Under the pieces are notes generated by a model. It was not told the origin of the DNA and did not search any database. It saw nothing but the letters and a program-made list of their open reading frames with translations. From Crocinitomicaceae bacterium (GTDB taxonomy: Bacteria > Bacteroidota > Bacteroidia > Flavobacteriales_D > Crocinitomicaceae): 64,000 nt of DNA. Both the position numbers and the translations under genes were made by a program. The stretch is taken from positions 1,448 to 65,447 of the forward strand of contig JAKVAQ010000005.1 in the NCBI GenBank assembly GCA_022447665.1. The letters are read 5' to 3'. Below, piece by piece: positions 39,611 to 51,754 of this stretch (the stretch's first letter is position 1; each line of letters begins with the position of its first letter).

Positions 39611-40375
39611 ATGGCGACAGGATTTCTGTTGGAAAAAATTTACCAGCCTTTTGCTTTATTAGTCCTTGTTCTGGCGGTGATTACCGGTGTGTTTTTAGTG
39701 TATCGTTTAAACGATTCCATTGACCAACATCACGACTTAAAGTTTAATATTCGAAAGTTTTGGGGTAATCCTTTGCACAAGGTTTGCATCATTCAGTTTG
39801 TATTCATTTTAATTCCAGCGAGTCTTTACTTTTTAAGCAGTTTTACTTTTTGGGTGATGGCGATTGCAGCTGTTGCTGGGTTTATTTACTCTATAACTTT
39901 GCATATTAACGGGAAGAAATTCAGGATCAAAAATGTTTTCATTGTTAAAAACCTCTTTATTGGCTTGGCCTGGGGAGCTCTTGTTTTCATTGGTGCTGGG
40001 GGGTATTCGAATCCTCTAACCATAGCATTCTTCATTTTTGCTAGTGTTCAAGTTTTTATTGGTTCTGTAATTCGAGATATTCCGGACTTTAAAAAGGATA
40101 TAGAAAACAATGTTAAAAGTCTTCCTGTGGTTTTAGGAATAAAGAATACCATTTACGGAATGAAATTATTGAACATTACTTCTGTAGCAAGTGTTTATTT
40201 CATTGAATGGGACGACAATATTATGTTTGTAATAAGTGCCGTTATTGTCTGGAGATTAGTGAATTTAAGATTACTCTACAAAGGAGAAAATATAAAATTT
40301 TGGAGTCAAACCTTCAATTTAGCGACATGCGTACTTATATATTTGGGCGCTGTATTCTTAGAATTTTATGGATGA
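39611..40375 (+). CDS. UbiA-like prenyltransferase, N-terminus uncertain
   Basis: 254 aa as read from ATG. Two Asp-rich motifs of the UbiA superfamily are seen: NDSIDQHHD (about residues 33-41, NDxxD) and VIRDIPDFKKD (about 154-164). Seven or eight hydrophobic helices. UbiA enzymes transfer prenyl groups to aromatic or other acceptors in the membrane. The N-terminus looks cut: in frame upstream (39521-39610) the translation continues sensibly (FKKLYLFFVASSALMATGF), forming what should be the first helix, but no ATG, GTG or TTG occurs before the stop at 39518-39520. Either a rare start (CTG at 39542) is used or the sequence has an error. Overlaps the next gene by 8 bp. Confidence 0.75.
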   Translation: MATGFLLEKIYQPFALLVLVLAVITGVFLVYRLNDSIDQHHDLKFNIRKFWGNPLHKVCIIQFVFILIPASLYFLSSFTFWVMAIAAVAGFIYSITLHINGKKFRIKNVFIVKNLFIGLAWGALVFIGAGGYSNPLTIAFFIFASVQVFIGSVIRDIPDFKKDIENNVKSLPVVLGIKNTIYGMKLLNITSVASVYFIEWDDNIMFVISAVIVWRLVNLRLLYKGENIKFWSQTFNLATCVLIYLGAVFLEFYG

Positions 40376-40859
40376 TTTATTGAGCATATCTCCCGTTTAC
40401 TGGGCAAGTTTGATACTTGGCTCTGCCACGGTGTTCACCATTTTTTGGGGGCTCGATTCCATTACACATAAAAAATTGGCGCGAGCTGATATAACGGACC
40501 AAGAATTCGAAACGCATCGAAATATTCTTACAGCATCTTTTTTAATGGAGATTTCATTGGTATTAATGTTCTGGTTTCAAAAAGCAATGCTACCTTTTTT
40601 CATAGCCTTTTTTATTACAAGAACAGTACATGAGTTTATTGACGAATTAAAATATCATTCTGATCGTTGCACTCCTTATGAAACGAGGCTTCATTTAATT
40701 ATGTGGGTTTCGGTTTTGACCAAATCTGCTGGAATGTTTATTTGGGGTTATTTTACCGGATATGAAGGCCTAACTGAATTGCCGGTGATCTTCTTTATTT
40801 GGGGCGGAATTGTTTTGATTGCCATGAGCTATATCTCATGGATGGAATGGAAGCGTTAA
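40368..40859 (+). CDS. Polytopic membrane protein of unknown function
   Basis: 163 aa with four or five predicted helices (about 8-28, 48-68, 70-90, 108-130 and 135-158). Charged loops include THKKLARADITDQEFETHR and FIDELKYHSDRCTPYETR. No family recognised. Its start lies inside the UbiA-like gene (8-bp overlap), so it is translationally coupled and may work with that enzyme. Confidence 0.65.
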   Translation: MDDLLSISPVYWASLILGSATVFTIFWGLDSITHKKLARADITDQEFETHRNILTASFLMEISLVLMFWFQKAMLPFFIAFFITRTVHEFIDELKYHSDRCTPYETRLHLIMWVSVLTKSAGMFIWGYFTGYEGLTELPVIFFIWGGIVLIAMSYISWMEWKR

Positions 40860-40933: not shown

Positions 40934-41827
40934 TTACTTAGAGTTCAAAAAGTCTAATACCAACCTTGTGTACAACCTAGGCTTTTCATAATTAGGCATA
41001 TGAGCAGCGTTCTCGATAGTCTGCAATTCTGCAACATCTCCCATATGTTCTTTCAATTTTTGCCCAATGCTCAAAGGAGCCAAACGATCTTTTTCTCCCC
41101 AAATCAATAATACCGGAAAATCAAACTTGTATTCTCTAGTTCTTAGCTTCTCCAATTCTTCATCTGATTGACGAATTAATTTCCGTTTTTCTTCGGCTCC
41201 AGCAACATATAGATTCTTATGAATATCTCTAAAAACAAATCGTGGAATTGGCGGAACTTTATGGTAGGCGATTTTGAATAGTTTATACAAGTGTTTATGA
41301 TCGTATGGAACCAACAATTCCAATTTATCTTTAGCACCATGTTCTTTGATTAGGTTCTGTACCTCGGAGTCTTCAATGAATTTAATGGGTCCATTTACTA
41401 GGATCATTTTTTCTATTCGCCCAGTATTTTGAAGAGCAAACTCTGCGGCAATTGCACCACCATACGAGGTGCCTATAATGGAGGTTCTTTCAAGTTTTAA
41501 GTGATTCATGAGCAATGTAACTGCATCAACTTGGTCTTGAATTGTATAAGACTTTTGGTGCTTCGTACTTTTTCCAAAATATACTAGGTTGGGAGTTATC
41601 ACCCTAAACGATTTCGAAAGTTTTACCACTTGTTTGTACCAACTATATTTTGTTTCGGCAGCAAAAGCTGGCAGGAGAATTAATGGTGGTTTTTGACTTT
41701 CTTCTGAATCCCAAAATTGAATCTTGTATTCGTCATTTTCGAAGAATATCTCCTTCAAACCAGCACGTTTGAATAGGAACTCAACGTAGGTTTTGAAATA
41801 AAAAAATGGAGAGAAAATGCCGGGCAT
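40934..41827 (-). CDS. Alpha/beta hydrolase
   Basis: 297 aa. Nucleophile elbow GTSYGGA (Ser in GxSxG), acid residue in LLIWGEKDRLAPLSIGQKL and His in ENAAHMPNYEKP complete the catalytic triad. N-terminal LLPAFAAETKYSW carries the oxyanion region. No signal peptide; the first 20 residues are hydrophobic-aromatic. It is the last gene of the eight-gene cluster, overlapping the flavoprotein gene by one base. In this context it could release or trim an acyl product, as a thioesterase-like enzyme. Confidence 0.88.
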   Translation of the reverse strand: MPGIFSPFFYFKTYVEFLFKRAGLKEIFFENDEYKIQFWDSEESQKPPLILLPAFAAETKYSWYKQVVKLSKSFRVITPNLVYFGKSTKHQKSYTIQDQVDAVTLLMNHLKLERTSIIGTSYGGAIAAEFALQNTGRIEKMILVNGPIKFIEDSEVQNLIKEHGAKDKLELLVPYDHKHLYKLFKIAYHKVPPIPRFVFRDIHKNLYVAGAEEKRKLIRQSDEELEKLRTREYKFDFPVLLIWGEKDRLAPLSIGQKLKEHMGDVAELQTIENAAHMPNYEKPRLYTRLVLDFLNSK

Positions 41828-43269
41828 TATTTCTTTGATTTAAAGAGCTGTTTCAATTCTAAATTTACATAATCTGCTCCAGCTAGAATAAGAAGGTGAA
41901 TTGGTTTGAACCAAAAACGGATTCCCTTTGGCGTGCCTACCCGTGAAAATTTAATTTGATGATGCTTTTTAATCGCTTTTTCCTTCTTTACGATAGATTT
42001 ATATCTCTTGGCAAAGTATTTAAACAAAATCCACTCTACCCAATTAAACTGTAAGGGTTCTTTTAGTCGTTTATAACTGAACAAAGCAGGGTATAAAACC
42101 CAGCCAAAATAAACATAGTTACCATTCCTTAACCAACTTGTAAAAACGGAAAACGATTTCATAAATTCATACCCCGCCTTATATGAAGCCTCTCTTGATT
42201 TAAAGGAACGCTTGAATTTCTTTTCGTACTTGCACCAACTAACTCTTTTACCGGTAGCTTTTTCTTTGGCTAAATTCTCTGAAATCCACATGATTTGCTG
42301 ACAGGTTATTTCCATACCTGGTCCGGCCAACGGATCAATAAACATACCGCTATCACCAAGTAGAATTAGTCCTTTATACGTCAATTCATTCGCACGATAA
42401 GTAAGTTGATTCAGTTGTTTCAGGTCACCAATCTTTGAACCAGCAGCCAGTTTCTTTATTTGTTCGTCATTCTCCAAGCGCCATTTAAAATGTGACTTTT
42501 CATCTATGTTCTTATGGTATTCCTTGTCCAATACCATACCCAAACTCATGGTGTTTTCATTCAACTTTATGACCCACCACCATTCATGATCCCGCATGAA
42601 ATGAATGGTAGCATAATCAGCGGTATTCCTTGCTTCTGTTGGCCATTGTCCGTTTGGATTATCCCAACCATTATTAGTAAATGGATCAGTGATATAAGTA
42701 TAAACTACAGAGGTCTTAAGATTGACTTCATCATAGGGTAAACTAAAAAGATTAGATGTAAATAGAGTCCTACCGGTAGCATCAACTACCCAAGGAGATG
42801 AAACGCTTAGGTCTTGTGAGCTTGTTCTTACTTTTAAATTATTCTGATAATCACTTTTTTGATAGTCTATTATTTCGCCTGGTCGAATAACATCTACTCC
42901 CTTTTCTTGAATTAATTGAAGTAGATCCTCATCAAGAATTTGTCGATTCAAATGGTAGCCATAGACCTTCCCTGGCATAGTAGGACTTACAAACTCCGAA
43001 ATCTTATCAACCCCTTCATCTCCGTACCAGTGAAACCTTAATCCCGATTTTATAGCTTGCTTTTTAACCAAATCTTCTATCCCTAATCGCTGAATAAATA
43101 CCGCCGAAATTTCTACGATGGATTCTCCTAATTTAGGGCCGAATTTTTCGGCTTTTTCAATCACCAATATTTTATGATTCGGTGATTTTTTGAGAAGGGA
43201 AAGACATAAAAAAGAAGCACTAACTCCTCCTCCTATTATTATTAAGTCATATGTTTTTGAATCATTCAA
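41827..43269 (-). CDS. FAD-dependent oxidoreductase, tryptophan-halogenase-like fold
   Basis: 480 aa. FAD motif DLIIIGGGVSASFLCLSLL at the N-terminus, EKFGPKLGESIVEIS resembling the GES segment of flavin halogenases, GDSGMFIDPLAGPGMEITCQQ near the second FAD motif, and WWWVIKL, where halogenases have WxWxIP. Here the proline is Lys, so chlorination cannot be claimed; a monooxygenase or dehydrogenase acting on a carrier-bound acyl chain is equally likely. It overlaps its neighbours by 1 and 8 bp in the cluster. The C-terminal third is basic and may bind membrane. Confidence 0.8.
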   Translation of the reverse strand: MNDSKTYDLIIIGGGVSASFLCLSLLKKSPNHKILVIEKAEKFGPKLGESIVEISAVFIQRLGIEDLVKKQAIKSGLRFHWYGDEGVDKISEFVSPTMPGKVYGYHLNRQILDEDLLQLIQEKGVDVIRPGEIIDYQKSDYQNNLKVRTSSQDLSVSSPWVVDATGRTLFTSNLFSLPYDEVNLKTSVVYTYITDPFTNNGWDNPNGQWPTEARNTADYATIHFMRDHEWWWVIKLNENTMSLGMVLDKEYHKNIDEKSHFKWRLENDEQIKKLAAGSKIGDLKQLNQLTYRANELTYKGLILLGDSGMFIDPLAGPGMEITCQQIMWISENLAKEKATGKRVSWCKYEKKFKRSFKSREASYKAGYEFMKSFSVFTSWLRNGNYVYFGWVLYPALFSYKRLKEPLQFNWVEWILFKYFAKRYKSIVKKEKAIKKHHQIKFSRVGTPKGIRFWFKPIHLLILAGADYVNLELKQLFKSKK

Positions 43270-44293
43270 TACTTGTAAGACTATAAGTAATACCCAACAG
43301 GTCTAAGATTTCCTTTTCTTCATTTTTAAAAAGACTTGAAGGTGGCTTTACTCCTGAAAAATCTTGGTTATCCATCACTTTATACAGAGCAAAGACCATC
43401 GCCTTAGCTGTTATTAAATACATATCCTCTGCCTCTAATAAAACAACTTGAGTAGGATTATTGTTGAATTTTAGGTAGAGCGCAGTGGTCTGGCTTGCTC
43501 TCTCTTTTAAATTAGGACCTTTGCCCTTTCGGGTTTTTAATTTCTCATAAGTACTCTCAACCAATTCAGACTTATTCCCCTTGGCTCCGACAAAAATAGC
43601 CGCTGTTTTATTCAAGAGTAAATAACTTCCTGCATCTTTTACATCATTCTCCCATGACCAATAGGCTACTTCGGGCAAAGGATAAGGAACAGCTACTTTT
43701 ATTTCATTTCTTAATTCAAGTTCTTCTCTCTCGTCATTGACCTTCTCGAAATCACCATCTCTAAGAAAATAAGTATCCTTTAGATTACTCAATTTCATGG
43801 TGATCTTAGTGCCAGGAGAAGGACGCGATTCTGAGAAATGATAATAGGTATGAAGCGCAGTAATTGGAGCATTTTCATTTTGATAAATTCGTGCTCCTAA
43901 ATCAGCAACCAGCGATTCAAAAGCAACACCTTGAACAATAAGTGACCTCGAACCTCCACAAGATTCCTTTATTGATCTTACTAAATCAAGCTCACCGGTA
44001 ATATCAAGATAAACCTTCTCTGAACGCAATGAAAGTTCTTCAATAAACTGCTTTGATTCTATTCCAAAAGGTCCGGCAGAGTTCAAAAAAATATCAAAAT
44101 TATCAAGTAAGTATTTACGATCTTCTTCCTTTTGAAGATCTTTAACTAAACCGTTTTGATCTAGTTTTTCCGGATTTCTACCTACGGTAGTAAATTCAAT
44201 ACCTTCTTCGGCCAAACATTCGGTTAATATGGAACCTGTGTATCCATAAGCTCCAATAAGTGCGATTCGTTTATGATTTGCTTTCTTCGTCAA
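43262..44293 (-). CDS. Saccharopine dehydrogenase-like NADP-binding protein (possible enoyl reductase)
   Basis: 343 aa. N-terminal Rossmann motif IALIGAYGYTGSILTE (about 10-25) and FLNSAGPFGIES, as in the saccharopine-dehydrogenase-like family that includes trans-acting enoyl reductases of lipid biosynthesis. Its start overlaps the acyl-carrier gene by 23 bp and its end overlaps the flavoprotein gene by 8 bp, so the operon is strongly coupled. Position supports an acyl-chain reductase role, but the substrate is unknown. Confidence 0.75.
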   Translation of the reverse strand: MTKKANHKRIALIGAYGYTGSILTECLAEEGIEFTTVGRNPEKLDQNGLVKDLQKEEDRKYLLDNFDIFLNSAGPFGIESKQFIEELSLRSEKVYLDITGELDLVRSIKESCGGSRSLIVQGVAFESLVADLGARIYQNENAPITALHTYYHFSESRPSPGTKITMKLSNLKDTYFLRDGDFEKVNDEREELELRNEIKVAVPYPLPEVAYWSWENDVKDAGSYLLLNKTAAIFVGAKGNKSELVESTYEKLKTRKGKGPNLKERASQTTALYLKFNNNPTQVVLLEAEDMYLITAKAMVFALYKVMDNQDFSGVKPPSSLFKNEEKEILDLLGITYSLTSIE

Positions 44294-44672
44294 TCCTATA
44301 TTTTACAATTTTACACAAAGAATGAACGGTAAATAACTGAACCAATTCGTGTACAGTGAGGCCTTCTTTTAATTTTGCAGGATCAATTTCTGTCATAAAA
44401 TCTCGAATCACCACGAGACCTTCATTGGTAATAACACCATCAATTTCGTAGGGTTTATCTCCCAATTCTTTCTTAGCGCGCGATTCAATATCATTAATTT
44501 TTAGTTCTATATCGTATAGAGATTCCAGCTCAAATAGAATATCTACAAGATCTATAGAGTCAACTCCAAGCTCATCAAAAAGCGTTTGATCAAGTCCAAT
44601 ACTTTCCTTTGGTGTACCAACTGAATTCTCAATTACCTCCGCAACGTTTTTATATATTTCCTCTATTTCCAT
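44271..44672 (-). CDS. Acyl carrier protein
   Basis: 133 aa, longer than the usual 80. Helical ACP core at about residues 1-75 with the phosphopantetheine site LGVDSIDLVDILFELE (Ser in DSI). The C-terminal half (about 75-133) is an extra acidic segment containing GVITNEGLVVIRDF and a helix that may contact partner enzymes. The acyl chain made by the ketosynthase cluster would be held here. The AcpS enzyme is not in the window. Confidence 0.9.
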   Translation of the reverse strand: MEIEEIYKNVAEVIENSVGTPKESIGLDQTLFDELGVDSIDLVDILFELESLYDIELKINDIESRAKKELGDKPYEIDGVITNEGLVVIRDFMTEIDPAKLKEGLTVHELVQLFTVHSLCKIVKYRIDEESKS

Positions 44673-44675
44673 AGT

Positions 44676-45434
44676 TTAAACTAAATAGCCTCCATCAATA
44701 TTTAGGCAAGTTCCTGTAATGTAAGATGCCGTTGCATCTGAAGCTAAAAACAATACCCCTTTTGAAACTTCTTCGGGGGTCCCAAATCTACTTAAAATGA
44801 TTCGCTCAGGAATGTATTTTTCAGCACGAGATTCCAGAGGCTCACTCATTTTTGTTTTTATTCCGCCGGGGCGAACCGCATTTACTCTAATATTTTTTCT
44901 TCCTACCTCAAGGGCAAGTGTTCTTGTAAAAGAATCGATCCCTGCTTTCATTGAAGAATATGCTGTTATTCCTCTTCCTCCTCGCAAAGCGGCTATGCTA
45001 GAAACATTGACAATTGAACCCGATTTTTGGGAAAACATTGGTTTGAGAATAGCTTGTGTTAAGAGCATCATTGTTTTTAAATTCACCTGATACATTTGGT
45101 CAATTTGTTCTTCGGACATCATTGCGAAAGGCAATTCAACAACATTACCAGCACAATTCACTAAAACATCAATTCTTCCCTTTTCTTTTACAATTTCTGA
45201 AACGACCTCTCTAATATTATTTTTATGCAAAAGATTGGTCTTTTTGAATGAAACAGAATTCAAATCTGCCTTGGACACCTTCAACCTATCTATTAAATCT
45301 TCCACTTTCTTTTCATTCCTGAATAGGCAAACGACATGTGCTCCTTCCTGAATAAATTCAAGACATATTTGCTGGCCAATACCTCCAGTTGCACCTGTTA
45401 AAACAACAATTTTATTATTCAGTCCTAAATTCAT
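44676..45434 (-). CDS. fabG: 3-oxoacyl-ACP reductase (FabG-like SDR)
   Basis: 252 aa. NADPH motif VLTGATGGIGQQIC (about 12-25), LVNCAGNVVELPF, catalytic Ser in IVNVSSIAALRGGRG, and YSSMKAGIDSF with Tyr and Lys, then NAVRPGGIKTKM and ITGTCLNIDGGYLV. It would reduce beta-ketoacyl-ACP to the hydroxyacyl form. Ends 4 bp inside the ketosynthase start region (overlap with 45431). Confidence 0.93.
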   Translation of the reverse strand: MNLGLNNKIVVLTGATGGIGQQICLEFIQEGAHVVCLFRNEKKVEDLIDRLKVSKADLNSVSFKKTNLLHKNNIREVVSEIVKEKGRIDVLVNCAGNVVELPFAMMSEEQIDQMYQVNLKTMMLLTQAILKPMFSQKSGSIVNVSSIAALRGGRGITAYSSMKAGIDSFTRTLALEVGRKNIRVNAVRPGGIKTKMSEPLESRAEKYIPERIILSRFGTPEEVSKGVLFLASDATASYITGTCLNIDGGYLV

Positions 45435-46714
45435 AGTTGTTCATTTTTAACAGCAAGCACTGTGTTAATTCCTCCAAATGCAAAATTACTTTTCACCGCA
45501 TATTTGATTGGTTTAGAAAGGTCCTCTTGCAATAGATTCATCTCCTCATCAATTGGAGTTTGAAGATTTAAGTTTTTCGGAATATGTGAGTGTTGCATTA
45601 ATTCAATCAGTATACAAAGCTCTTGAACTCCCGCTGCTGCAATGGCATGTCCATGACGATCTTTAGTACTCGATATTGGAATATTTTTAGCACTTACTCC
45701 AAAAGCATTTTTCATAGCATTGAGCTCCGTACCATCATTCTGACGCGTTCCTGTACCATGAGCGTAATAATAATCAACCTCTTCGGCCAAAATACCGGCT
45801 TCAGCAATGGCGTCTTTTATTGCTTTTGCCATAGAAATCCCCTCAGGATCTGGTGCAGTAATTTTATATCCATCTAGGGTATTCCCATATCCACAAATAG
45901 AAACCAAGGCTTCTAAATTATTTTCTTCTACGAATTTTTTACTCGCCATGATAACAAATCCAGCAGCTTCACCAGAAGATGTTCCTTTTCGATTTATATC
46001 AAAAGGCAAACAAGCTATACTTCCATCACTTACTGGAATAACACCCAGCTTGCCAAAAGAAATTAGAGAAATCATATTCAAAATAGAATCCGTTCCTCCG
46101 GCAATAACCACATCGGCATCACCATTTAAAATAGCATCATATCCGTGAGCTATAGCTTGAGTTGAACTAACGCAAGCTGTTAGTATTGAATTTTGAAAAG
46201 CCTTTGCATTAAATTTTTCTGCCAAGTATACAGCGTATAAATCATGAGGATTTGAAAGCGCTCCAATAGCACTTCCTCCTTCATTCATTTTTGAAATTAA
46301 CTCAATAACCGCATTCAATTTCTTATCAAGGAAATTGCGAACATCTCCCTCAAACATTTCTAGCGGAATTGACTCTGCACCAACACCCATATAAACTCCA
46401 GTTCTAGCAGGATTTGCTAATTCAATAATTTCAGAAAAACGATCTGCTCCTTTATGAAAAGCAGCTGCCAAAAGTTCTAATTTCCGATCTATCTTGGATA
46501 ATTCTTGAATGGAGTTTGGCTCATTTTTGAGTAAATCCTTGAGGTCAAATCTTACCTCAGCCCCATCATTAAAAGGCAGTCCGGTAACATCAAAATTTTC
46601 AATTTTACCGCAAGCATCTGTTCCGGCTTTAATGTTCTCAATAATATCATTTCTTCCCAGAGCTATTGGGCTGACAAGTTCGTGATCTAATATGTAAACT
46701 TTACTTTGTTTCAT
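45431..46714 (-). CDS. Beta-ketoacyl-ACP synthase (catalytic ketosynthase)
   Basis: 427 aa, KAS II size. The catalytic Cys-His-His set is visible: Cys in SILTACVSSTQAIAHG, His in YYAHGTGTRQNDGTE, His in DRHGHAIAAAG. KSNFAFGGINTVLAV closes the active site. It should extend the chain held on the ACP next door using malonyl units. The HGTGTRQND form is like the ketosynthases of aryl-polyene and flexirubin-type clusters rather than housekeeping FabF, though this is a judgement from memory. One-base overlap with the upstream KS-like gene. Confidence 0.9.
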   Translation of the reverse strand: MKQSKVYILDHELVSPIALGRNDIIENIKAGTDACGKIENFDVTGLPFNDGAEVRFDLKDLLKNEPNSIQELSKIDRKLELLAAAFHKGADRFSEIIELANPARTGVYMGVGAESIPLEMFEGDVRNFLDKKLNAVIELISKMNEGGSAIGALSNPHDLYAVYLAEKFNAKAFQNSILTACVSSTQAIAHGYDAILNGDADVVIAGGTDSILNMISLISFGKLGVIPVSDGSIACLPFDINRKGTSSGEAAGFVIMASKKFVEENNLEALVSICGYGNTLDGYKITAPDPEGISMAKAIKDAIAEAGILAEEVDYYYAHGTGTRQNDGTELNAMKNAFGVSAKNIPISSTKDRHGHAIAAAGVQELCILIELMQHSHIPKNLNLQTPIDEEMNLLQEDLSKPIKYAVKSNFAFGGINTVLAVKNEQL

Positions 46715-47709
46715 TATTTGGTTAAAACCACTAATGTTTCACGGTTGTAAATATCTCTGTCTAATATTGCTACTTTCTCATCACCTGAATTCAATAACTC
46801 AATCCCCTTATTTATGGATGCGTGTATATTAGAAGCTCCTAGATTTCCAAACTCACTAAAAAGAGAATGAGCTTCCGTGACAAATCCTGAACAATAGGCT
46901 AGATCATCATTACTCTCCTCCTCCGTGAAAGCCCCTGAACATATAGCAACATCAATTTTTTCTTCAAGTAACTCAGCCCAGTTTCTTCTAATTCCACCTT
47001 CAAAAAAAGATGTGTTTGAACCAGCTTTTATTTGATGTATTTTGGCGATTGCTGCGTCTTTTTCGGGTCCTATTAAAAGAGAACTTGCACAGGCACCTTC
47101 TTTCCATCCAGCATAATTTTTTCGATGAACAGAATTCACCAAAAATGAATACTCCCCTGCTCCATTTGACGATACGGCTACAGAATATTTCTTTTTCAAA
47201 TTCGCATCTATCAATGCCTGCTTTATCACCTGAAAACCTGAGTAAGATGTATTACCGTAGGTAGCATTGTTTCCTTTAAGCCCAACATATTGAGCAATAA
47301 AACTCATGGTTGAATTAGTAAGTGTTTGTAAAGCCAATAATGGAGGGGAAATCCGATAGAGCTTATGATTTTTCTCACTGTTATCTGTCTCATCTTTTAT
47401 CTTATCATAAACCCTAGTCAAATGACCCAAATGCTTTTCTACATTCTCAATAAAAACACCAGATCCAACGAACAAACCGGTATCGTAGTTATCTATTTTA
47501 ATTGGGCTATTATTGATTAAATCTGAAGTGCAAAGTATAGATGCAATGGTATCTTGACGCATTATCTTTTCGTCACTTCTTACCGGATAGTTAGAATGAT
47601 CTTTATCCAATAATATTTTACCCGATGAAAAAGAGGTGTGCTTTAACTCAGAAACAACCTCATCATTGAAGTTTTGCGGCAGTAATATTTCGCTTCCGTA
47701 GATGTACAC
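46714..47709 (-). CDS. Cysteine-less ketosynthase-like protein (chain-length-factor type)
   Basis: 331 aa, shorter than a full ketosynthase. The fold is suggested by MSFIAQYVGLKG, NATYGNTSYSGFQV in place of the cysteine elbow, KEGACASSLLIGPEK and GNLGASNIHASINKG near the end. No catalytic Cys is at the elbow (it reads YGNTSYS), and the HGT motif is absent. Such inactive KS partners form heterodimers with the active KS in type II polyketide and aryl-polyene systems and set chain length. Its gene directly precedes the active KS gene with a one-base overlap. Confidence 0.75.
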   Translation of the reverse strand: MYIYGSEILLPQNFNDEVVSELKHTSFSSGKILLDKDHSNYPVRSDEKIMRQDTIASILCTSDLINNSPIKIDNYDTGLFVGSGVFIENVEKHLGHLTRVYDKIKDETDNSEKNHKLYRISPPLLALQTLTNSTMSFIAQYVGLKGNNATYGNTSYSGFQVIKQALIDANLKKKYSVAVSSNGAGEYSFLVNSVHRKNYAGWKEGACASSLLIGPEKDAAIAKIHQIKAGSNTSFFEGGIRRNWAELLEEKIDVAICSGAFTEEESNDDLAYCSGFVTEAHSLFSEFGNLGASNIHASINKGIELLNSGDEKVAILDRDIYNRETLVVLTK

Positions 47710-48180
47710 CTATCCTTTTGGTTTTATATTGTGAAAGAATTCATCCATTTTATGAATAAAAGGATTCTCTTCCATGTCGCTCTTTAGTCCAAGTAAAAAG
47801 GAAAGTGTTGCCGAACACATTAACTGATCATTCACATAAGTTTCGGCAGTTACATTGCCACGAATATTATCCAGGGAAATAACCTTTGATTTTAAAATGC
47901 ATTGGTCGCCCGGCTGCACAAAGTGCTTAAACTTTGCCTTTTGAATAATGCTGAGTATAGGATATACTTTAGTAGCATGAGGGAATTTAGCGTAATAACT
48001 TTCTTCCAATAAACGACCCGAAAGTTGCGCCATGGATTCCGTGAGCATCACACCAGGAACAATAGGGAATCCAGGGAAATGATCCTGAAAAATGGGATTA
48101 TCCAAGCTCCAACACTTAATTCCCTCGGCAGTTTCGCCCGGATTAATTTCTGTTATTCTATCAATTAATAAAAAGCGCAT
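47710..48180 (-). CDS. FabZ-like hot-dog dehydratase
   Basis: 156 aa. Hot-dog fold with the FabZ site DHFPGFPIVPGVMLTESMAQ: catalytic His in HFP and Glu in TES. It begins with EINPGETAEGIKCWS. It would dehydrate beta-hydroxyacyl-ACP to the enoyl form. First gene of the eight-gene operon; it abuts the KS-like gene without gap. Distinct from a housekeeping fabZ, which in Bacteroidota is normally fused to or beside lpxC. Confidence 0.9.
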   Translation of the reverse strand: MRFLLIDRITEINPGETAEGIKCWSLDNPIFQDHFPGFPIVPGVMLTESMAQLSGRLLEESYYAKFPHATKVYPILSIIQKAKFKHFVQPGDQCILKSKVISLDNIRGNVTAETYVNDQLMCSATLSFLLGLKSDMEENPFIHKMDEFFHNIKPKG

Positions 48181-48364: not shown

Positions 48365-48961
48365 ATGATTTCGATTTATAAAATAAAGCCCGCTTTTCAA
48401 AAGTTACTACAACCCTTAATGAATGGGTTGTACAAAATTGGGGTAACCCCAAATGCCATAACAGTTTTTTCAATAGTATTTAGTCTTGGCTTGGGCGCGC
48501 TGGTGTACTATCATCCTTGGAATCCTTCTTTTTTACTACTAGTTACCTTAGGCTTGTTTTTGAGAATGGTGTTTAACGCACTCGACGGAATGATGGCTAA
48601 GCAACATAATATGCAAAGCAAACTTGGTGAAGTTTTGAATGAAATAGGCGATGTACTATCTGACCTTTTTGTAATTCTACCGTTTGTTATTATTCCTAGC
48701 ATAGACCCAGGATGGATACTATTATTTGCCTTTCTTGCTGTAATAAATGAATTTGCCGGGGTTTTAGGCAAAGCACTTGGCGGTGAACGGCGTTACGAAG
48801 GCCCGATGGGTAAAAGCGATCGAGCTTTATTTATTGGACTATTCTGCATTATAACTTATTCTTGGGAAGGGTTTTCAGCCTACCAAAATGAAGCATTTAT
48901 CGGGGCGATCGGGCTCATATTAATTAGTACGATTGTACGCCTTGTGAAAGCAGTTAAATGA
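48365..48961 (+). CDS. CDP-alcohol phosphatidyltransferase with altered motif
   Basis: 198-aa polytopic membrane protein. The family motif is recognisable (residues about 72-100, NALDGMMAK...GEVLNEIGD), but the usual DxxDGxxAR-x8-GxxxDxxxD has Asn for the first and third Asp and Lys for Arg. Family members exchange CMP of a CDP-diacylglycerol for an alcohol such as glycerol phosphate, serine or inositol phosphate. The acceptor here cannot be told. First gene of an operon with cdsA, plsC and two unknown genes; the next gene overlaps by 4 bp. Confidence 0.85.
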   Translation: MISIYKIKPAFQKLLQPLMNGLYKIGVTPNAITVFSIVFSLGLGALVYYHPWNPSFLLLVTLGLFLRMVFNALDGMMAKQHNMQSKLGEVLNEIGDVLSDLFVILPFVIIPSIDPGWILLFAFLAVINEFAGVLGKALGGERRYEGPMGKSDRALFIGLFCIITYSWEGFSAYQNEAFIGAIGLILISTIVRLVKAVK

Positions 48962-49902
48962 GCATTTACGGATATCACATACCAACAAATGTTCTCGTTG
49001 CGCTGTTAATCATATTCAGTGTTTTAGTCACTTGTACTATTGCCTTTGGAATTCTTAACAAAGTAAAAAAGTCGAAGTTGAGCACGGAGCTTTTAACTAG
49101 GGTGATTTCGTGGTGGTGGATTGCGGGTGGTGTTGCTGTAATTGTCGCCGCTCCTAAAGTTTTTGGAACAGTCATCATTGCCTATATCTCCTTTGTTGCT
49201 TTAAGAGAGATGTTCTCCATAGGAATCTTCAGGTCCTCAGATAGAACAGCAATGTTCTTTGCCTATTTTGCTATTCCTGTTCAGTTTTATTTGGCCTATA
49301 ACAACTACTACACTCAGTTTTTATATTTCATCCCTTTGTACATGTTCATTGGTGTGCCTTTCATTCTGGTACTTACTGGCCAGACAGAAAAAATTGGAAG
49401 ATCAATGTCCGTTATACCTACGATTTTAATTCAAACGGTATACCTCTTGAGTCATTTAGTGCTGTTCTATAATATTGAAATAGAAGGGTATGAATCAGGG
49501 CCAGGAGGTTTATTGATTTTTCTACTTATGATCACGGCCTTCAATGATGTGTTTCAATTTACATGGGGGAAGCTTTTTGGAAGGCATAAAATATTACCGA
49601 AAGTAAGTCCGAACAAAACAGTAGAAGGTTTTCTTGGTGGAGTAATTAGTAGCGCAGGATTAGGTTATTTTATGTACTTCCTAACTCCACTAGAGCCTTG
49701 GCAGTCTTTAGTAACGGGTGTAATTCTATCCATAATGGGGTTCATTGGTGATGCGATTGTCTCTGCAATAAAGCGTGACTTAGGAATTAAGGATACCGGA
49801 AATATAGTACCTGGTCATGGAGGAGCATTGGATAGGTTGGATTCTATCTTGATAACAACACCAATTTTCTATCATTTACTTATCGCCTATTTATCATTCT
49901 GA
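48958..49902 (+). CDS. cdsA: Phosphatidate cytidylyltransferase (CdsA family)
   Basis: 314 aa. Makes CDP-diacylglycerol from phosphatidate and CTP. The full signature is present near the C-terminus: SAIKRDLGIKDTGN then VPGHGGALDRLDS, with the metal-binding and CTP-site residues. About eight transmembrane helices precede it, and KVSPNKTVEGFLGG lies in the middle. Being beside a phosphatidyltransferase and an acyltransferase, it probably serves a dedicated lipid rather than, or in addition to, bulk phospholipid; a housekeeping cdsA could exist elsewhere. Confidence 0.93.
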   Translation: MSIYGYHIPTNVLVALLIIFSVLVTCTIAFGILNKVKKSKLSTELLTRVISWWWIAGGVAVIVAAPKVFGTVIIAYISFVALREMFSIGIFRSSDRTAMFFAYFAIPVQFYLAYNNYYTQFLYFIPLYMFIGVPFILVLTGQTEKIGRSMSVIPTILIQTVYLLSHLVLFYNIEIEGYESGPGGLLIFLLMITAFNDVFQFTWGKLFGRHKILPKVSPNKTVEGFLGGVISSAGLGYFMYFLTPLEPWQSLVTGVILSIMGFIGDAIVSAIKRDLGIKDTGNIVPGHGGALDRLDSILITTPIFYHLLIAYLSF

Positions 49903-50558
49903 TGCGCGCCTTTTTCTCTAAAATATTGTATGTGATTTTAATTCGGCCATGGCTGAAGTTGATCATCGGTGTGCGCTATAGAAATAAAAAAATCGTTAAC
50001 GATACACCACAATATATTCTTGTAGCGAACCATAATAGTCATTTCGATACCTTGTCAATAATGGCAGCGATACGTTATAGCCAGTTTAAGAAAACCCATG
50101 CGGTAGCCGTTGAAGACTATTTTGGTAAGACTTCTCTATCGGCGGCGGCTGTTCGTTTTTTCTTTAATGCCATTTTAATTGGTCGTTCTAGTAAAGAATC
50201 GAAGAAAGATCCTATTCAACAAATGAGCAAAGCACTTGATAAAGGGCAATCATTAATACTATATCCAGAGGGTACGCGTGGACAACCTGGAGTGATGCAA
50301 GATTTCAAAAGAGGTGTTGCAGTATTACTAAAAGATCATCCGAATGTTCCATTCATTCCAGTATTTTTAGAGGGTTTTGGAAAGGTACTACCGAAATCTA
50401 AAACACTTATTCTTCCCATGAACTGTACTGTAAGATTTGGAAAGCCAGTTTTTCCAAAAAGCACTGAGATTGAGGATATTCTTGGAGAAGTAAAAACAGC
50501 GATTCTTGCTTTGCAGAAGAGAGATGAACGCTACACAAATGATTTTGAAAATATATAG
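49902..50558 (+). CDS. plsC: 1-acyl-glycerol-3-phosphate acyltransferase-like protein (PlsC family)
   Basis: 218 aa. Acyltransferase motif I VANHNSHFDTLS (HxxxxD), motif III region LYPEGTRGQPG and IPVFLEGFGKVLP. A short hydrophobic N-terminal helix attaches it to the inner membrane. It would acylate lysophosphatidate or another lysolipid. Its start shares a base with the cdsA stop, and the next gene starts 3 bp after it, so it is in the operon. The acyl donor may come from the ACP cluster across the divergent promoter, as inference. Confidence 0.9.
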   Translation: MRAFFSKILYVILIRPWLKLIIGVRYRNKKIVNDTPQYILVANHNSHFDTLSIMAAIRYSQFKKTHAVAVEDYFGKTSLSAAAVRFFFNAILIGRSSKESKKDPIQQMSKALDKGQSLILYPEGTRGQPGVMQDFKRGVAVLLKDHPNVPFIPVFLEGFGKVLPKSKTLILPMNCTVRFGKPVFPKSTEIEDILGEVKTAILALQKRDERYTNDFENI

Positions 50559-50561
50559 ACT

Positions 50562-50909
50562 ATGACGACCCCTGCCATTTCAGTGATATTATTCTTGATT
50601 GCCTCTTTGTTCGGGGCTTTAGGTCAGTATTTATATAAATCCGGAGCTCAATCCGTTGAAGGTGGATTTGTAGGCTATCTAACGAATTGGAAAATATTAA
50701 GTGGTGTGGTTTGCTATATCGCAGTAATGGTGCTCTTTGTAGTGGCTTATAAAAAGGGAGGTCAACTTTCTGTGCTCTATCCAGTTTATGCGACAACTTT
50801 TGTTTGGGGAGCTTTGATTGCAATGATTGCCTACGGTGAACCTATCAAACCAATAAACATAGGAGGTATGGCGTTGTTGTTTTTAGGAATGTATTTAATG
50901 GGGAAATGA
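50562..50909 (+). CDS. Small four-helix membrane protein, EamA/SMR-like
   Basis: 115 aa with four predicted helices (about 5-25, 40-60, 66-86, 95-113). LGQYLYKSGAQS in the first helix and YPVYATTFVWGALIAMIAYGEPI in the third are like half-size EamA/small-multidrug-type proteins, including the ArnE/ArnF lipid-carrier flippases. By position in a lipid operon it might move a lipid or lipid-linked compound across the inner membrane. Overlaps the next gene by 4 bp. Confidence 0.75.
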   Translation: MTTPAISVILFLIASLFGALGQYLYKSGAQSVEGGFVGYLTNWKILSGVVCYIAVMVLFVVAYKKGGQLSVLYPVYATTFVWGALIAMIAYGEPIKPINIGGMALLFLGMYLMGK

Positions 50910-51754
50910 TCAGAATTTCAATCATATCGGTTTTCATACTATTCTTTCTTCCAGGAATAGCCCAACAGGTTGATTTATCTGATAAAGATGGCATCATGAT
51001 TATTCATGATTGCGATAAACCGAGAAGCGAAAAAGAGGCTTTGCTCGTTCTCTCTGGTTTTGGCGATAGTAGAAAAGGAAGAAGACACCAAAAAGCTTTC
51101 TTTGATACGGTTGGGTATGATATGTACTTGCCATTTTACTTGGATAATAAATCGGTTAGCGCTTCTTATGATAAATTCATAACCTTTCACAAGAAGAAGA
51201 AGTTGCACGAGTACAAAACTTTGCACGTTTTCTCTTATATCCTCGGATCATGGATCATCAATACTTATATCAATGAAAATGGCGCCGGAAATATTAAGAC
51301 CATTGTTTATGACAGAAGCCCTTTGCAAGAACAAGCACCAAGAATGGTAGTAGAAAAAGTTCCTCTACTGGCTAGAATACTCGTTGGCCCTGTGGTTAAG
51401 GATTTTAGTAACATCCCTTATCCGAGTATAGAAAAAGGAGATATTAAAATTGGGATAATTGTTGAAAGCAGAGCGACCTTTTTAGTGAGAAGGTTTAAGA
51501 AAACAATTCAAGGTTATGGAGAGATTGATTGGGAGAATCCGCCCATTAAACAGGAGTACGATGATTTAATTTATACTATGCTGAACCATGATGAAATGTA
51601 TGAGAAATTTGAAGTTATCGGAGATGAGATAATGCACTTTATTCGCCATGGAAAATTTCCAGAAGACGCGAGAAGAACGCTCGATTTTGAAAATCATAAT
51701 CCTTATGAGAAGCAGAAAGGCATGAAGAGGCGGGATTATAATGCTACTTTTTAG
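50906..51754 (+). CDS. Exported alpha/beta-hydrolase-like protein of unknown function
   Basis: 282 aa. Signal peptide about 1-21 (ending LPGIAQQ). LLVLSGFGDSRKGRRHQ resembles an oxyanion loop and HVFSYILGSWIINTY sits where a nucleophile elbow would be, but the GxSxG is not intact. No clear triad can be assigned. It ends the phospholipid operon. In E. coli the ynbABC genes also combine a CDP-alcohol transferase, a CdsA homologue and a hydrolase-type protein, which makes a lipid-modifying role plausible. Confidence 0.6.
   Translation: MIRISIISVFILFFLPGIAQQVDLSDKDGIMIIHDCDKPRSEKEALLVLSGFGDSRKGRRHQKAFFDTVGYDMYLPFYLDNKSVSASYDKFITFHKKKKLHEYKTLHVFSYILGSWIINTYINENGAGNIKTIVYDRSPLQEQAPRMVVEKVPLLARILVGPVVKDFSNIPYPSIEKGDIKIGIIVESRATFLVRRFKKTIQGYGEIDWENPPIKQEYDDLIYTMLNHDEMYEKFEVIGDEIMHFIRHGKFPEDARRTLDFENHNPYEKQKGMKRRDYNATF

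Follow-up and report, generated by a model that had tools for sequence, protein, structure and literature searches.

A modular type II acyl-synthase gene cluster with a predicted ketosynthase/chain-length-factor pair in the Crocinitomicaceae

The stretch of DNA analysed here (64,000 nucleotides, the window) comes from a Crocinitomicaceae bacterium (NCBI GenBank assembly GCA_022447665.1, contig JAKVAQ010000005.1, positions 1,448 to 65,447), whose genome is assembled to 4.06 Mb in 84 contigs and is marked as that of a Bacteroidota member by two features scoring over cut-off, PorP/SprF and a Por secretion tail. Between positions 40934 and 48180 it carries eight open reading frames (ORFs), all on the minus strand, which a preliminary description had proposed to be a type II fatty-acid/polyketide cluster; all eight are present. 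Read along that strand, they begin with a FabZ-like 3-hydroxyacyl-acyl carrier protein (ACP) dehydratase (DH) of 156 amino acids (aa) with the HFPGFPIVPGVMLTES motif (47710-48180; Pfam FabA, 8e-17; NCBIfam FabZ, 2.5e-29, below cut-off), followed by a ketosynthase (KS)-like protein of 331 aa (46714-47709) with a serine, Ser155, at the position of the KS cysteine, here termed CLF for its putative role as a chain length factor; a KS of the active type of 427 aa (45431-46714; Pfam, 4.6e-19 and 4.1e-30); a FabG-like ketoreductase (KR) of 252 aa with a YSSMK motif (44676-45434; Pfam, 2.2e-56; NCBIfam FabG, 2e-64, below cut-off); and an ACP of 133 aa (44271-44672; Pfam PP-binding, 2.5e-9), in which a carrier domain with the motif DSIDLVD is joined to a C-terminal extension of about 60 aa. 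The last three genes encode a saccharopine-dehydrogenase-like (SCCPDH) NAD(P) reductase of 343 aa (SACC; 43262-44293, TTG start), a flavoprotein of 480 aa resembling flavin-dependent halogenases and monooxygenases (HAL; 41827-43269, TTG start; Pfam Trp_halogenase, 1.7e-15; NCBIfam CmlS, 6.5e-24, below cut-off), and an alpha/beta hydrolase of 297 aa with a GTSYGG nucleophile elbow (ABH; 40934-41827; Pfam, 2.2e-27). Pfam cut-offs were passed by the DH (FabA/FabZ-like), the KS, the KR (adh_short), the ACP (PP-binding), the Trp_halogenase-like flavoprotein, and the hydrolase (Abhydrolase_1).

The genes are packed tightly. One of the seven junctions is abutting (DH/CLF, 0 bp), five overlap by 1-23 bp (CLF/KS, 1; KS/KR, 4; ACP/SACC, 23; SACC/HAL, 8; HAL/ABH, 1), and KR and ACP are separated by a gap of 3 bp; the earlier statement that all are joined by overlaps of 0-23 bp therefore holds for six junctions and fails for KR/ACP. 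The boundaries given there also leave out a convergent pair of genes, encoding a UbiA-type prenyltransferase and a small protein (u163), that adjoins all four clusters of this architecture. Since the gene order recurs, as far as the contigs reach, in nine other genomes, the cluster is more than a chance association.

The KS retains Cys181, His319, Lys351, and His356, which are conserved in the four members of our alignment A2. Family scans of its partner gave no usable Pfam or NCBIfam match, a four-sequence CLF profile retrieved no KS from the PDB, and for the CLF orthologue in genome G602 there is a weak similarity to FabF models (E 1e-5). An AlphaFold model of CLF, made with an alignment of nine orthologues as input, has a pLDDT of 82, and Foldseek returned 777 matches to it at E<=0.001, the top ones being AntDE, the actinorhodin KS/CLF, and FabF (E about 1e-10), with TM scores of 0.55-0.74 (by query mostly 0.64-0.74) and a root-mean-square deviation of about 6-8 Å. 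In profile alignments with hhalign, the match of CLF to the four cluster KSs is weak (3.8%, E 0.011), and that to a broad KS set reaches 94.9% (E 4.6e-8), with Ser155 falling on the catalytic cysteine and a serine on the position of His319. CLF is hence most readily seen as a catalytically dead, chain-length-factor-type partner, and by sequence and fold the two proteins make up a KS-CLF pair that would act as a complex; the preliminary description was right to see a dedicated type II set with an active-type KS and a KS-like partner devoid of the catalytic cysteine. The top fold match, AntDE (PDB 6smp; chains of about 348 aa), is the anthraquinone KS-CLF of Photorhabdus. Unlike that system, the window cluster has no recognised aromatase or cyclase, and its KR, DH, and reductase suggest a reduced chain.

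To place the KS, a tree of 42 rows was built with the KSs of all ten readable clusters (the window's included), the genome's own FabF, E. coli FabF and FabB, ApeO and ApeR of E. coli CFT073, three kinds of flexirubin-locus KS, KSs from Streptomyces, Azospirillum, and Priestia, and a NodE-like KS. Twelve FabF-type references were drawn from a KS profile scan of the genome collection, which found at least 586 relatives, the best 80 of which were kept, all at 28-37%. The ten cluster KSs form one clade (support 100/100) on a long stem, apart from every sampled reference KS. In the best tree the clade groups weakly with a flexirubin KS, Flx_a (53/48), and the side shared by the clade with Flx_a, ApeO, Flx_b, and the Priestia KS has a support of 62/96; no supported grouping joins the clade to ApeO or ApeR. 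The best tree therefore does not show the grouping with FabF or FabB that the preliminary description had named as contrary to its proposal, but a constraint uniting the clade with the genome's own FabF was not rejected (p-AU 0.158). This last result, together with the FabG-like KR and the FabF-like character of the KS in the family scan, is what could be said for the cluster being a second copy of the housekeeping fatty-acid synthase, with no role beyond adding to the bulk fatty acids. The genome has a separate FabF-like gene (G000:C20), though, and the long stem of the KS clade, the tailoring genes in the operon, the cysteine-less partner, and the rarity of the cluster (below) make such a role very improbable.

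A CLF profile picked out nine of the 240 genomes sampled from the family, one of them the window's own. In a sample of the class it gave 8 matches among 395 genomes: four strong ones (the window's own genome, G346, G358, and G602, the last lying outside the family) and four weak ones (E 1e-4 to 7e-4), three of which were read (G637 not among them) and contain no such cluster. Searches with the single CLF found only the window's own genome among 296 of the phylum, and 4 of 119 relatives, again including its own; a scan of the genome collection with the single KS gave 41 pattern-matching stretches, none of them a relative. Wherever the contig is long enough, the order DH-CLF-KS-KR-ACP is kept; the G433 contig breaks off within CLF, and in G602 KS and KR are separated by an unrelated gene. 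A SCCPDH-like gene is present in nine of the ten; in the tenth, G549, the contig ends after ACP, and this cluster was left untyped in the classification by finishing genes that follows. Type A clusters (the window, G319, G433, and G447) carry the flavoprotein, the hydrolase, and UbiA with u163, the latter pair being convergent with the cluster except in G447, where it is in line. Type B clusters (G346, G358, G520, G573, and G602) carry instead a left-handed-beta-helix (hexapeptide, LbH) protein and an RND/HpnN-like exporter of the MMPL/HpnN type (5/5 each), and a desaturase in four of the five, none being found at the G602 locus. G447 has the type A genes and an exporter as well. In three type B loci (L009, 16046-18772; L099; L010) desaturase and HpnN-like RND exporter form one fusion protein of about 900-912 aa; G573 has a separate gene for each.

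The KSs of G573 and G549 group with that of G447 and not with those of their own genus-mates (99/98), and a single clade of the five KSs of genus g2 was rejected (p-AU 0.026, in a test named after the tree had been seen). The KS tree and the differing finishing genes together indicate that the core appears to have moved, or to have been duplicated, and recombined with different finishing genes, so that the cluster, besides being rare, is probably mobile. No description of such a cluster was found in the open-access literature, which is weak evidence of absence.

The reductase distinguishes this set from the systems to which it had been compared. Seven of the nine SACC orthologues match PF03435 (Sacchrp_dh_NADP, an NADP-binding domain; best 5.7e-13), and the proteins that SACC matches by tblastn are annotated as having a saccharopine dehydrogenase NADP-binding domain. 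A counterpart is known in Rv2953, which serves lipids made by type I polyketide synthases (PKSs). Rv2953 is a trans-acting enoyl reductase annotated as a saccharopine dehydrogenase (PMC3089613), and because of this precedent SACC is a plausible candidate for an enoyl reductase acting in trans, the two proteins being likened by annotation. Ladderane pathways were also considered and set aside; in the accessible part of PMC2649909 neither 'saccharopine' nor 'UbiA' occurs.

For comparison with pigment systems, 17 proteins of the aryl polyene (APE) region of CFT073 and nine flexirubin-locus proteins were run by blastp against the 74 window ORFs of at least 90 aa (E<=1e-4), the functions of the ape and flx genes being taken from PMC8253772 and PMC3992019. 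Matches were limited to the KS, the KR, the flavoprotein (22%), and an acyltransferase of the divergent operon (49902-50558), a weak match to APE that is unlinked to the cluster. As the preliminary description had stated, the window contains no AMP ligase, ammonia lyase, or glycosyltransferase of the APE or flexirubin type; nor did it yield an acyl-CoA synthetase, methyltransferase, LolA, or thioesterase of these types, or any match to the flexirubin ammonia-lyase-like protein (L122, named by eye) or to the CFT073 acyl-CoA synthetase (used as a stand-in for FlxY). Homologues of the ligase, ammonia lyase, glycosyltransferase, methyltransferase, LolA, and thioesterase are absent also from eight relatives' loci, the window and these loci being the only parts of the genomes searched for them. 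The CFT073 MMPL protein has no match at this threshold in the window or in these loci. There is no second, FabB-like KS of the ApeR type either: the sole active-type KS is the only window match to both ApeR and ApeO. The best match to the FlxB-type SDR in the window genome, at 247 bits, stays below the curated cut-off of 340; FlxB is over cut-off in 14 of 59 relatives and in one of the ten cluster-bearing genomes, G447, where it lies on a different contig.

These data bear on the possibility that the cluster is a divergent pigment system of the APE or flexirubin type, with loading and head-group genes elsewhere, a conjugated chain, and the SCCPDH-like protein in some other role. The likeness is real: the logic of KS, CLF, KR, DH, and ACP is that of aryl polyenes (as described in PMC8253772), and the elongation set (KS with CLF, a FabG-like KR, a FabZ-like DH, and an ACP) is present here by sequence and fold only; the KS clade lies, weakly, on the Flx_a/ApeO side of the tree; flexirubin loci (FlxA-Y, of the same family), which are type II fatty-acid-synthase-like and found in Bacteroidota, encode a distant homologue of HAL; and the MMPL/HpnN-type exporter of the sister clusters parallels the MMPL of APE. 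On the other side stand the missing ligase, lyase, transferases, LolA, and thioesterase of the window and the eight loci, the sub-cut-off FlxB, and the co-existence in G447 of the cluster with a separate FlxB. A possible enoyl-reductase-type core reductase accompanies nine of the ten clusters, the tenth being cut by its contig end, and because SACC is a plausible enoyl reductase the set is not simply the APE/flexirubin core that the preliminary description saw in it. We consider this pigment explanation unlikely; the cluster is related to the pigment-making systems yet is not one of them.

The combination of KS-CLF, KR, DH, and a discrete ACP is also that of highly reducing type II PKSs, and the ACP adds to the resemblance. 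Its extension of about 60 aa is present in the eight cluster ACPs, out of ten clusters, that were aligned (the window's included) and, unexpectedly, in two ACPs of Streptomyces type II PKSs; a cluster ACP and one from a Streptomyces plasmid are 30% identical over 118 aa (E 5e-15 in a single comparison), and a search matched 16 of 72,556 plasmid records at E<=1e-5, all from Streptomyces. The plasmid type II PKS clusters in question (L129, L131, L156, and L157), presumably of the ishigamide type, encode several KSs and a KSIII beside the extended ACP, and share with ours a KS, a second KS, KR, and DH. They differ in carrying FabD, three KSs, and KSIII, and the two L129 KSs are not members of the 100/100 clade. 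If the product were a specialised chain, polyunsaturated or of mixed reduction, made in the manner of a polyunsaturated fatty acid (PUFA) synthase or of a highly reducing type II PKS, with SACC serving partial reduction or reductive release and with UbiA unrelated, this would fit the homology to the ACPs of multi-KS Streptomyces systems and the desaturase found in four of the five sister clusters. Such a chain sits less well with the stand-alone KS, which scores 58 bits against a PfaA cut-off of 1010 (no PfaA KS was included in the tree), and with the constant presence of UbiA and u163 beside the four clusters of the window's architecture, and we rate it somewhat less likely still than the pigment explanation.

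Two enzymes could finish the chain in the window cluster. The nearest PDB relatives of HAL are PltA (2.2e-17) and CmlS (1.1e-14), with which it shares a GES motif, a WxWxI-like motif, and an invariant lysine; it carries GES and WWWxIK, and Lys74 is invariant in an alignment of four, whose other members are 35-40% identical to the window protein, and Lys74 aligns with a lysine of CmlS and next to a lysine pair of PltA. Flavin-dependent halogenases carry the motif WxWxIP, the equivalent lysine is catalytic, and PltA acts on a carrier-bound substrate. HAL, however, has WWWxIK in place of WxWxIP and is distant from the characterised members, and halogenation and hydroxylation are equally possible for it. 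The serine, aspartate, and histidine of ABH are conserved in an alignment of four, consistent with a putative release or acyl-transfer enzyme.

On the plus strand, convergent with the cluster, lie the UbiA-type prenyltransferase (39611-40375; Pfam UbiA, 5.9e-16), with the motifs NDSIDQHHD and RDIPDFKKD seen in the alignment, and u163 (40368-40859), a helical, probably membrane protein of 163 aa. A homologous frame reaches upstream of the UbiA gene to about 39521, which is as much as 30 codons ahead of the first ATG, and because it offers no ATG, GTG, or TTG, the true start is likely to lie earlier, at a rarer start codon. No Pfam or NCBIfam match was obtained for u163, which occurs in 3 of 295 genomes of the class; AlphaFold folds it as a helix bundle (pLDDT 89), to which Foldseek found no convincing PDB match (best E 0.74), and an alignment of six shows invariant charged residues (H50 and R51, H88 and E89, D92 and E93, H97, E105, and H109). 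It directly follows UbiA in all six loci read, namely the four with a type A cluster (the window and three others) and those of G306 and G041. In G041 (L149, 9562-10865) the pair's neighbour is a distantly MMPL-like protein; the 20-kb stretch has no KS match and, according to the genome search, a TGA lies inside the matched stretch. Near the cluster or near UbiA/u163, several relatives also encode a secreted-looking pair of proteins of 541 aa and about 318 aa (the latter a weak CYTH match; L007, 6007-8578; L101, 69-2133; L148, 10079-12611), the larger of which shows a kinase-like 'NWD..N / DLG' pattern. The 541-aa protein is found in G319, G433, G447, and G306; since it is absent from the eight other genomes searched, the window's included, a link to UbiA was dropped and the pair was left out of the model.

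A bolder possibility is that the cluster makes a polyketide-prenyl hybrid (a meroterpenoid) serving as a redox or structural lipid: the KS-CLF would supply an alkyl-substituted ring or acyl acceptor, the flavoprotein would hydroxylate or halogenate it in the manner of UbiH-type enzymes of quinone synthesis, UbiA would prenylate it, and u163, with its cluster of His, Glu, and Asp residues, would be a new membrane enzyme acting after UbiA. We regard this as a long shot; if true, it would represent an envelope lipid class so far undescribed in Bacteroidota.

On the other flank, a divergent operon (48365-51754) encodes an archaetidylinositol/PI-phosphate-synthase-like protein (archaetidylinositol-phosphate-synthase-like by NCBIfam) and a CdsA-like one, neither of which reaches its NCBIfam cut-off, together with a PlsC-like acyltransferase; next come an EamA-like protein and a 282-aa protein without a name. 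The suggestion that the acyl chain is passed to this lipid operon is not supported, as homologues of the operon adjoin the cluster in none of the seven relatives with flanking sequence.

Taking the evidence together, we favour, with a probability of roughly 0.58, a dedicated, self-contained KS-CLF acyl synthase that is primed by housekeeping enzymes, works with a trans-enoyl-reductase-like enzyme, and makes a modified envelope lipid. An acyl or malonyl starter would pass from the housekeeping enzymes to the KS-CLF heterodimer, with elongation on the long ACP. Priming by the host's FabH and FabD is assumed because a scan of the eight genes and of ten flanking proteins recognised neither of these enzymes, nor a ligase or a phosphopantetheinyl transferase. 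KR and DH would process the beta-carbon, and SACC, as a trans-enoyl reductase, could complete the cycle, so that a partly or fully saturated chain becomes possible. The flavoprotein would oxidise or halogenate the chain, presumably while it is bound to the ACP, after which the hydrolase would release or transfer it, and the membrane pair of UbiA and u163 probably acts on the same product. The hexapeptide-repeat protein and the HpnN-like RND exporter of the sister clusters point to a lipid of the cell envelope as the likely end product.

Several observations weigh against this preferred explanation. The window's own SACC passes no Pfam cut-off and has no PF03435 match, and blastp (E<=1e-4) finds no match between the chain length factor of APE and the CLFs of the window and eight relatives. 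No exporter accompanies the window cluster, and even the best RND match in its own genome, at E 2.5e-12 and 24% identity, is a distant one. UbiA and u163 occur also in two genomes where CLF has no match, G306 and G041, and so may be only loosely tied to the cluster. To these must be added the FabF constraint on the KS tree described above.

The cluster belongs to a type II acyl-synthase family that is genuine, uncommon, and modular. What it adds is a separate KS-CLF clade that comes with a reductase of its own and with a carrier protein whose extension is shared, and it points to a small membrane protein, u163, without a named family. As one core is here combined with different finishing genes, a chemical comparison of the related genomes could reveal the role of each finishing gene.

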